The notes beneath the pieces were generated by a model that was given only the letters and a program-made list of their open reading frames with translations, was not told where the DNA came from and did no database searches. Both the position numbers and the translations under genes were made by a program. Below are positions 10,587-34,068 of a stretch of 64,000 nucleotides of DNA, piece after piece. This DNA comes from Croceivirga sp. (lineage in GTDB: Bacteria; Bacteroidota; Bacteroidia; Flavobacteriales; Flavobacteriaceae), in assembly GCA_028284285.1 (NCBI GenBank), contig JANQSA010000048.1:1-64000 (forward strand), read 5' to 3'. How positions within the stretch are numbered: position 1 is the stretch's first letter; every line of letters begins with the position of its first letter.

Positions 10587-11288
10587 CTATTTCCCGCTCA
10601 ACAATTGATTCACCCTACTGCGATACGTCGGGCCAATAGGGATCGTGTGATTTTCCAGGAAGATTTGATTTCCCTGAACACGCTTAATCCTATTGGTGGC
10701 CACCAGAAAGGATTTATGTATACGAAGGAATTCATCTTGTGGCAGTAGATTTTCCAGGGTGGATATTTTTTCATGACTGATCAGCATTTCCTTGTCAAAA
10801 AACACTTTTACATAATTCCCGTAGGCTTCAATGAACAGAATATCTATTATATGAATTTGATGATGCTGTTTGTCCCCTTTTAAAAAAAAGTGATTGCTTT
10901 GTGGACTGTCCTTGTAACCCTGGATTGCGGGTTCTTGCTTTTGATCAGTTATCTTATTAACTGCCTGTAGGAACCGGGAAAACGAAAAAGGCTTGAGCAA
11001 ATAGTCCATGACATCCAATTCGTATCCCTCCAGGGCATACTCTTTGTAGGCCGTTGTCACAATGATTTTGGGAGGATTCGTTACCGTTTTCAACCATTCA
11101 AAGCCGGTCATTCTGGGCATGTTGATGTCTAAAAAAATCAAATCCACCCTTTTTCCGGTCAAAATTGTTGAAGCCTCAAAAGCGTTGTAAGCGTTACCTG
11201 CTTTTTGTAAATGGGGTAATTCTGCACAATAGCCCTCAATGATACGGTGCGCAATAGGTTCATCATCAATGATGGCGTACGTAATCAT
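10587..11288 (-). CDS. LytTR family response regulator
   Basis: REC domain (IIDDEPIAHRII, DINMPRMTG, TTAYKEYALEGYELDVMDYLLKPF) plus LytTR domain (DILFIEAYGNYVKVFF...FLRIHKSFLVA). Confidence 0.93.
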   Translation of the reverse strand: MITYAIIDDEPIAHRIIEGYCAELPHLQKAGNAYNAFEASTILTGKRVDLIFLDINMPRMTGFEWLKTVTNPPKIIVTTAYKEYALEGYELDVMDYLLKPFSFSRFLQAVNKITDQKQEPAIQGYKDSPQSNHFFLKGDKQHHQIHIIDILFIEAYGNYVKVFFDKEMLISHEKISTLENLLPQDEFLRIHKSFLVATNRIKRVQGNQIFLENHTIPIGPTYRSRVNQLLSGK

Positions 11289-12247
11289 TTACCGGTAGAT
11301 GAATTCAACAATAAGTTCAAATGTACGGTATATACCGTATCCGTTTTTTCAATGGTGAGTTGATGTCGATCGGGATAGCTATGCGCTAAGCGTTTCTTCA
11401 AATTCTCCAGTCCAATCCCTGCTTTTGGACGGGAAGCATTGGGCTCATAATTGTTCTCGATAGTGAAAAGGATCTGATTTCCCTGCGTTTTTAAGCTTAA
11501 ATGGATATAGGCGTTTTCCGTTAATGCCTCAACACCATGCTTAAAGGCATTTTCCAATACAATAATGAAAAGTAGAGGGGCTACCTGAACCGCTTCATCC
11601 ACTTCATGCTTAAATTGGATATCCACTTTTTTCTGATAGCGGATTTTATGTAATTCAATATAGGTTTCCATATAGCGGACCTCATCCATTAGGCTCACAG
11701 ATTCTTCCTTGCCCTCATAAATCGTGTAACGCATCATATCCGACAATTTTAGCACTACTTCAGGCGCTTTTTCTGATTTTTCCACCACCAGGCCATATAA
11801 ATTGTTCAGGGTATTAAAGAAAAAATGAGGATTCACCTGGCTCTTCAATAAGGCTAATTCCGCTTTTCCTTTATCTGCTTGCAATGTCCTTAGCCAACGC
11901 CATTGTTCGTACACCCACAAAGCAGCAAAAACCGGGATCGGAATAAACATGAAATTCGCCAGATACAGGCGATGATTTTCTGTGGGATCAGGTACCATAT
12001 TGAAAAGGAAAAAATTATACGCTATAACCAATCCGTACACAGAAAAAATGGCTACCCTGTACTTTTTGAAAAATTCAGGTAAAACCAGATACGCCACTCC
12101 CAACCAGAATAGGATCAAAAGCGGAATGGTAACAGGACTATCCCAAATACCGGTATAATGGGGAATAACCAGCAGTACAGCCAGGAAAATGGTAATGACC
12201 CCTCCTTTGATGAAAGCCGTATGATATTTTTGAAAAAAACCATTCAT
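11285..12247 (-). CDS. LytS/YehU-type sensor histidine kinase
   Basis: LLKSQVNPHFFFNTLNNLYGL H-box; PLLFIIVLENAFKHGVE N-box; 4 nt overlap with the LytTR regulator. Confidence 0.92.
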   Translation of the reverse strand: MNGFFQKYHTAFIKGGVITIFLAVLLVIPHYTGIWDSPVTIPLLILFWLGVAYLVLPEFFKKYRVAIFSVYGLVIAYNFFLFNMVPDPTENHRLYLANFMFIPIPVFAALWVYEQWRWLRTLQADKGKAELALLKSQVNPHFFFNTLNNLYGLVVEKSEKAPEVVLKLSDMMRYTIYEGKEESVSLMDEVRYMETYIELHKIRYQKKVDIQFKHEVDEAVQVAPLLFIIVLENAFKHGVEALTENAYIHLSLKTQGNQILFTIENNYEPNASRPKAGIGLENLKKRLAHSYPDRHQLTIEKTDTVYTVHLNLLLNSSTGK

Positions 12248-12455
12248 CGCTCAAAAATAGGAATCCCTATAGCCACGCACCATCTTTTTTGACCAACGCC
12301 ATAGGTTTCGCGTCAAACCCTACATTTTTTGTATTGAATGCCATTGGTCTGTTTCACGTATCTCTATGTTTCGTTTTCCCTTGAGTTCATCAAAAGAATT
12401 TCAAGGTATTTCCAGGTGAATTTATGTTTGGATAGCATTACCTAAATACCGCATT

Positions 12456-31686: not shown

Positions 31687-32037
31687 CTAAAGCCGTACAG
31701 AAACCATTTCAGATTGGTTCCAGTTTTTTACCGCAACAATTTTGTTATCCTTAAAATCAACTTCTTTTAGAATGTCACCTTCCCAGAAAAACCATTTTCC
31801 TTGTCGGCTACCATCGATATACTTTCCGGAAGCGATTTTCTTTCCATTGACATCATACATAAACCATTGCCCGTGTAATTTTCCCTTAAGCAAATAGCCG
31901 GTTTGTGCTATTTCCCCATTGTCGTGGAAATAAGTAGCCTGGACCATTTTCCCCACTTGTTCAAATGTCGGTTTATTATCTTGTGAAAACATATAAACCG
32001 AAAACATCATCGCCAAAAGTAATATTGCTTTCTTCAT
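31687..32037 (-). CDS. Secreted MORN-repeat (YwqK-like) protein
   Basis: Signal peptide; ATYFHDNGEIAQTGYLLKGKLHGQWFMYDVNGKKIASGKYIDGSRQGKWFFW repeats. Confidence 0.75.
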   Translation of the reverse strand: MKKAILLLAMMFSVYMFSQDNKPTFEQVGKMVQATYFHDNGEIAQTGYLLKGKLHGQWFMYDVNGKKIASGKYIDGSRQGKWFFWEGDILKEVDFKDNKIVAVKNWNQSEMVSVRL

Positions 32038-32215
32038 AATTTATGGGTTTATTGTTATTATATTAACGTTAAGAACACAAATATACGTATTTCTAAACAA
32101 TTTATAAACTAAAAATTTACTATTTATTTACATTAAATTTACATAAACCATATAATTATTTGATTTTCAATATATAAGCATTTGTAAGTTTTTGTCGTCA
32201 ATTTTCAGGAATTGT

Positions 32216-32245
32216 ATGAACGGTAAAAAAAACCGTATGAACGGC
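32216..32245 (-). promoter_or_regulatory. Candidate LytTR-type operator (two direct repeats)
   Basis: On the minus strand GCCGTTCAT-12 nt-ACCGTTCAT; matches consensus [TA][AC][CA]GTTN[AG][TG] (second copy 9/9, first copy 8/9). Confidence 0.5.
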
Positions 32246-32319
32246 CAGGTATCTTTGACTGAATTTAATTGCACTAACCCCTGCGAACATCTTAACTTTG
32301 CCCCCATTAAAACACAATT

Positions 32320-34068
32320 ATGTACAGAAGTCATACCTGTGGAGAGCTCGGGATAAAGGATATCGATAGGGAGGTAACCCTAAGTGGTTGGGTACAGAAA
32401 GTCCGGGACAAAGGTTTTGTAGTGTGGATAGACCTGCGTGACCGCTATGGCCTTACGCAATTGGTCTTTGATGAGGAACGTACTCCAAAACAGCTGTTGG
32501 AGCAGGCCAAAGCTTTAGGGAGGGAAACAGTTGTCCGGGTTTTGGGAACCGTAATTGAACGCGCTTCTAAAAATCCCAATAGGACCACCGGGGAAATTGA
32601 AGTTTTGGTCAAAGAACTTAGCATTCTGAACAAGGCGCTCCTTCCCCCTTTTACCATTGAGGATGAAACCGACGGAGGGGATGACCTCCGGATGAAATAT
32701 CGCTACCTGGATATCAGAAGGACCCCAATTAGGGACAACCTCATCTTCAGGCATACGGTAACCATGGAAGTACGAAACTATCTCTCTGCTCAGGGATTTA
32801 TTGAAGTGGAAACCCCCTATTTGATTAAATCCACTCCTGAGGGTGCCCGAGATTTTCTGGTGCCCAGTCGAATGAATGAGGGACAGTTCTACGCCCTTCC
32901 CCAATCCCCTCAGACCTTCAAACAATTGTTAATGGTAGGGGGCATGGACAAGTATTTCCAAATTGTGAAATGTTTCCGGGATGAAGACCTAAGAGCAGAT
33001 CGCCAACCGGAGTTTACCCAAATCGATTGCGAAATGGCCTTTGTAGAGCAGGAGGATGTCTTGCAAATGTTTGAAGGGCTCACCAGGCACCTTTTAAAAG
33101 CCATCAAAGGAGTGGAAATCGGGCCCTTCCCCAGAATGACCTATGATGAGGCGATGCGACGTTACGGAAATGACAAGCCCGATATCCGCTTTGGGATGGA
33201 GTTTGGAGAATTGAACGCTGTTGCACAACACAAAGACTTTAATGTGTTCAATACCGCTGAACTGGTCGTAGGTATAGCGGTTCCCGGGGCTGCTTCCTAC
33301 ACACGAAAAGAAATCGACAAACTCATTGATTGGGCAAAACGCCCACAGGTAGGTGCCAAAGGAATGGTCTATGTAAAATGTAATGAAGATGGGACCTTTA
33401 AATCCTCCGTGGATAAGTTTTACGATCAGGAGGACCTGGCACAGTGGGCAAAAATAACAGGAGCGAAAACCGGAGATCTGATTTTAATACTTTCCGGGGA
33501 AGCAAATACAACACGTGCACAGCTCAGTACCCTCCGCATGGAGATGGCAGAACGCCTGGGATGGCGAAAACCGGATGAATTTGCTCCTTTGTGGGTGATT
33601 GACTTTCCCCTTTTGGAATTGGATGAAGCTACCGGCCATTACCACGCCATGCACCATCCGTTTACTTCACCAAAGCCGGGGCAACTGGAACTCCTGGATA
33701 CCGATCCGGGGGCCGTTAGGGCCAATGCCTACGATCTGGTGTTGAATGGCAACGAAATTGGCGGAGGTTCCATTCGTATCCATGACAAGGAAACCCAGGC
33801 CATCATGTTCAAACACCTTGGTTTTACCCCGGAAGAAGCCCGGGCCCAGTTTGGGTTTTTAATGGATGCCTTTCAATACGGTGCTCCACCTCATGGCGGC
33901 ATTGCCTTTGGCTTGGACCGATTGGTAGCTATCCTGGGTGGGCAGGAAACCATTCGGGATTTTATCGCTTTTCCCAAAAACAATAGCGGACGGGACGTGA
34001 TGATTGATGCGCCGGCTACTATTGATGAGGAGCAACTGAAGGAATTGCATCTGAAAGTGGATGCGTAA
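32320..34068 (+). CDS. aspS: Aspartyl-tRNA synthetase
   Basis: [11 protein letters not shown]...; [34 protein letters not shown] class II motifs. Confidence 0.97.

Follow-up and report, generated by a model that had tools for sequence, protein, structure and literature searches.

A predicted LytTR-type operator between a secreted MORN-repeat gene and aspS in Croceivirga, and a candidate cognate response regulator

Results

An exact direct repeat between two divergent genes

Within the 64,000-nucleotide stretch of Croceivirga sp. DNA analysed here (the window), a YwqK-like gene on the minus strand (31687-32037) and aspS on the plus strand (32320-34068) are divergently arranged. The former encodes a secreted MORN-repeat protein of 116 aa with an N-terminal signal-like stretch; its ORF is found in orthologs, and the ortholog in G402, a genome of another genus, is 60% identical and matches Pfam MORN_2. 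The latter encodes aspartyl-tRNA synthetase, with the Pfam tRNA-synt_2, GAD and anticodon-binding domains. The YwqK-like gene has a –7 box, TATATTTG, at 32078-32085 on the minus strand, and aspS has one, TAACTTTG, at 32293-32300 on the plus strand. Between these promoters, at 32214-32244, the minus strand reads CCGTTCATAC-GGTTTTTTTTA-CCGTTCATAC, that is, two identical 10-mers (plus-strand form GTATGAACGG) separated by an 11-nt spacer, with starts 21 bp apart. The distance from the site is 75 nt to the aspS ATG (32320) and 176 nt to that of the YwqK-like gene (32037).

A sequence-only reading of this DNA had proposed a LytTR binding site here, 75 nt upstream of aspS and pointing toward the secreted MORN-repeat gene. 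Its account of the letters, strand and spacing is correct, with the core better set at 32214-32244; the distance to aspS is confirmed and the reading direction of the repeat agrees with the proposed orientation. The ground on which that proposal was made, a near-match to the published LytTR consensus, proved to be weak: allowing one mismatch, this degenerate consensus finds one match in the window where ∼1.07 are expected by chance, and we have rejected such a match as evidence. The exact 21-bp-period repeat has one perfect copy in the 4.8-Mb genome, with a chance expectation of ∼1e-4 (a base-count estimate that, like the other expectations and E-values here, assumes a simple background), and its 10-nt half-sites and 11-nt spacer fall within the repeat length and spacing (9-11 nt, 11-13 nt apart) that define LytTR-type operators.

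The site is conserved amid diverged DNA

The site is found at the same place in five of 11 Croceivirga genomes (G000, G001, G002, G004 and G008) and, likewise between ywqK and aspS, in G402. A sixth Croceivirga genome, G006, carries a decayed copy whose flank is 83% identical to that of G001, which looks like a recent loss; the remaining five have no site between ywqK and aspS. Intact copies, spacer included, are 87-100% identical in all pairs, while the adjoining 70 bp are only 41-54% identical in diverged pairs, rising to 83-86% within the close trio G002, G004 and G008 and between G001 and G006. Absence from orthologous promoters, which the sequence-only reading had put forward as a reason to abandon the site, was checked; the site is present there, an outcome that favours that reading.

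The same operator class precedes a LytTR regulator just outside the window

When 400 Flavobacteriaceae genomes were scanned with a pattern taken from the site, 16 matches were obtained, against two for the reversed pattern. Twelve of the 16 lie directly upstream of orthologs (78-84% identical) of one LytTR response regulator, for which the binomial probability by chance is negligible, and two lie between ywqK and aspS. This regulator, which we call regulator X, combines a receiver with a LytTR domain; it is encoded 1.6 kb past the window (contig C3:65623-66354) and is followed by a TPR-containing histidine kinase (C3:66367-68331). A scan of the genus gave 17 matches, made up of ten regulator X promoters, five ywqK-aspS sites and two sites upstream of a secreted OmpA-family protein. 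A spacer-containing pattern yielded three weaker matches in the family, one of which (L188) is another regulator X promoter; the other two (L187 and L189) adjoin neither ywqK nor aspS.

We examined 22 regulator X orthologs, with identities as low as 63%. Upstream of every one the best-scoring 21-bp repeat has 0-4 mismatches, and in 20 of them a –7-like box follows 30-31 bp beyond the repeat, toward a divergent small gene. The half-sites CCGTTTATAC and CCGTTCATAC are shared by regulator X promoters of other genera (L157, L158, L164 and L165). A matrix built from 32 regulator X-upstream sites, with all aspS sites left out, gives the ywqK-aspS site the highest score in the window, 26.0 bits, the next site scoring 10.9 and no site in 30 shuffles exceeding 17.4. 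Regulator X is present wherever the site is conserved, since every one of the 11 Croceivirga genomes encodes it, as does G402 (81%); given that it is also found in genus genomes without a ywqK-aspS site, presence and absence alone do not single it out.

More distant regulators carry related sequences. A Profundicola LytTR gene is preceded by three tandem copies of the repeat; its product shares 45% identity with regulator X, and 50% over the DNA-binding domain. A Draconibacterium LytTR only ∼33% identical to regulator X has the same half-site upstream. The sequence class of the site is thus found upstream of LytTR regulator genes, in the 12 family matches as in these two genera. The prediction that the site is a real LytTR-type operator, as the sequence-only reading had it, is well supported, mainly by recurrence and conservation.

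The small gene divergent from regulator X recurs across Flavobacteriaceae and encodes 35-68 aa, consisting of M[KR]KC, one hydrophobic helix and a variable tail; its –7 box and the operator are 30-31 bp apart. The protein has no Pfam match. In the pairs compared, dN is well below dS, so the ORF is probably a real gene. In the genome under study it is the unannotated ORF MKKCVILFIVLLVMLVFAAILEKAEASEQKEVVVWNSKP (G000:C3:65209-65328, minus strand; locus L102:1209-1328).

The same operator is found upstream of secreted proteins in the genus members G007 and G010 and in G023; that of G007 has an OmpA domain and the other two look, by sequence, to be of the same family. Three loci (L146, L150 and L156) have the operator upstream of mutually similar secreted proteins sharing an AERTVER... 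region, with the OmpA domain confirmed in L146, and a similar OmpA-domain protein adjoins the Profundicola LytTR gene (L092). At least five contigs of one uncultured Aquimarina genome (L071, L086, L087, L090 and L091) carry the repeat, which is often followed by additional copies at the same 21-bp spacing. The genes downstream encode short or secreted proteins, of which one has a GG-type peptide leader (MKKLLELKGVKKISRNQQKEIKGG); this reads as a larger LytTR regulon.

Spacing favours the YwqK-like gene as the target

On the ywqK side, the distance from the operator is exactly 128 bp to the –7 box and exactly 70 bp to a direct repeat TGTAAA-N5-TGTAAA (32127-32143, minus strand), which resembles OmpR-family boxes. 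Both distances are invariant in seven genomes, even though the intervening DNA is 41-54% identical in diverged pairs. TGTAAA-N5-TGTAAA, with its OmpR-family or WalR-like spacing, is the best match of its kind in the whole genome, and relatives that lack the LytTR site have similar repeats. On the aspS side the gap from operator to –7 box varies between 47 and 50 bp. Given the invariant spacing on the one side, the drift on the other and the reading direction of the repeat, the YwqK-like gene appears the likelier target, which would make the operator an unusually distal one.

The alternative is that regulator X binds the site but serves aspS, activating or tuning it against the reading direction. 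Proximity speaks for this possibility, since the site is close to the aspS ATG, at a fairly constant distance of 74-77 nt, and within 50 bp of a strong and conserved –7 box. Nevertheless, indels have accumulated in the aspS-side spacing and none in the ywqK-side spacing, the repeat points the other way, and the same aspS core promoter is found in family members without the site, so that we consider aspS an unlikely target. Between the site and aspS, G002, G004 and G008 (L004, L005 and L006) have a GCTGGG-N10-CCCAGC-type hairpin; on the minus strand a T-rich run comes after it, and it could be a terminator.

The distal position is also the chief difficulty for the YwqK-like gene. A gap of about 30 bp from operator to –7 box is typical in Bacteroidota, and is usual, although not universal, in the LytTR family; it is 30-31 bp at the regulator X promoters and 31 bp at a second LytTR operon in the window (10587-12247). 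The present site departs from it in both directions: in the reading direction, a strong and conserved –7 box is first met 128 bp away, and in the reverse orientation the aspS box is 47-50 bp away. On the ywqK side no –7 box is conserved at a distance of 30 bp, and on the aspS side a TATCTTTG found 5 bp from the site in the window is not maintained as a complete –7 box. Given the precedent of AlgR, which acts from far sites, the missing 30-bp spacing lowers the probability of ordinary proximal activation, not that of the operator itself.

Other candidate binders

Two further points weigh against regulator X as the binder. Its upstream sites within Croceivirga have the half-sites CCATTTGTAC and CCAATTATAC, not the CCGTTCATAC of the ywqK-aspS site, and LytTR half-sites resemble one another, as the Draconibacterium case illustrates. 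Another LytTR paralog of similar specificity might therefore bind, and the genome, with 36 LytTR domains in total, offers many candidates. We regard this as quite unlikely, given that neither the genome nor the genus has further sites of this class other than those at regulator X promoters and, in two species, at the OmpA-family gene. Two paralogs are close to the Draconibacterium regulator. One of these, L069, was rejected: it has no site, and it is missing from the best matches listed for G002, G004 and G008, all of which have the ywqK-aspS site. The gene of the other, L047, is located behind its kinase gene.

A different kind of explanation is that a non-LytTR protein recognises an inverted repeat embedded in the site, ACCGTATRAACGG (ACGGT-N7-ACCGT). 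The spacer and this imperfect palindrome are indeed conserved at the site, more so than are the spacers at regulator X promoters. Since the palindrome is present in only one of the two copies, and regulator X promoters have the 21-bp direct repeat without it, we find such a protein very unlikely to account for the site.

The sequence-only reading had linked the site to the LytTR response regulator encoded at 10587-11288 (minus strand), some 21 kb away, and the half-site does fit the generic LytTR consensus. The link did not hold up. With 36 LytTR domains in the genome, the proximity of a regulator gene is no argument. The promoter of this regulator's own kinase-regulator operon has a distinct 21-bp repeat, GTTTGAC-N14-GTTGGTC (12291-12318, minus strand), which is kept in all six orthologs together with the 31-bp gap to the –7 box, and the ywqK-aspS site does not share that sequence. 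Furthermore, G001, whose ywqK-aspS site is perfect, lacks an ortholog of the regulator (best match 39%, in an assembly that is 92% complete). We have accordingly rejected it, its binding to the site being highly improbable. Its conserved repeat and gap suggest a second operator class and a promoter geometry that may be general among Bacteroidota LytTR systems.

Finally, a functionless chance match to the loose consensus, of the sort expected once per window, is already refuted: the site is conserved in two genera although the DNA around it has diverged, and the repeat recurs upstream of regulator X.

Discussion

Our conclusion, to which we assign a probability of roughly 0.8, is that the site is an operator for regulator X and that the YwqK-like promoter is its likeliest target, with the operator serving as a distal input. 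The repeat, its conservation, its sharing with regulator X-upstream sites and the spacings were all obtained directly by computation. From these we infer that regulator X binds the site, that it activates and does not repress, and which gene it targets.

Mechanistically, two copies of regulator X would presumably occupy successive half-sites 21 bp apart on the same face of the DNA. The ancestral target of the regulator is probably the promoter divergent from its own gene, which would drive a small single-helix membrane protein (MKKC...) from an operator 30-31 bp upstream of the –7 box. In part of Croceivirga, and in one further genus at least, a second, stronger copy of the operator lies between the YwqK-like gene and aspS, where it may cooperate, as a distal operator, with the proximal TGTAAA-N5-TGTAAA box at the YwqK-like promoter.

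A broader picture, which we offer tentatively and hold to be doubtful, is that regulator X and its TPR kinase constitute an undescribed envelope-sensing circuit of Flavobacteriaceae with a tiny set of targets: the divergent MKKC small membrane protein, which may feed back on the kinase, and the secreted MORN and OmpA-family proteins. The ywqK-aspS site would be an enhancer-like, phase-locked distal LytTR operator cooperating with the OmpR-type box, and possibly coordinating the tRNA synthetase as well.

Bacteroidota genomes encode dozens of LytTR regulators, and the pairing of regulator with operator in this phylum is now directly testable. What we supply is an operator at the level of sequence, a candidate cognate regulator, X, lying just outside the window, in place of the one first named, and a promoter geometry (a 21-bp repeat, then 30-31 bp to the –7 box) that is shared by a second paralog whose half-site differs. 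Among the openly licensed papers searched for Bacteroidota or Flavobacterium LytTR operators, we found none that characterises a flavobacterial operator.

LytTR-family operators such as those of YpdB (at yhjX), AgrA and VirR consist of two direct (or inverse) repeats of 9-11 nt, 11-13 nt apart (PMC4847170). The present site shares their direct-repeat layout, at 10 + 11 nt and a 21-bp period, and as a predicted operator is one further example of the kind; it differs in the sequence of its half-site and in its unusual distance to the nearest conserved –7 box in the reading direction. The half-site CCGTTCATAC is nearly the same as that of AlgR of Pseudomonas aeruginosa, CCGTTCGTC, and as the AlgR site at rhlI, CCGTTCATC, and AlgR also acts from far-upstream sites, such as those at –394 and –470 of algD (PMC4064291). 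AlgR belongs to a different phylum, the relevant parts of that source describe no 21-bp double repeat for it, and we do not claim regulator X as its ortholog. Closer in arrangement are the LytTR regulatory system operons of Bacteroides thetaiotaomicron and B. ovatus, in whose autoregulatory promoters a TAnnTTTG –7 box (TATCTTTG) is preceded by direct repeats spaced by 11 bp (PMC6193735, Table 3), an arrangement that fits the 30-31 bp seen at regulator X promoters and at the 10587-12247 operon. The Bacteroides regulators lack the phospho-receiver aspartate and are paired with a membrane inhibitor, whereas regulator X contains a receiver domain and is accompanied by a histidine kinase.
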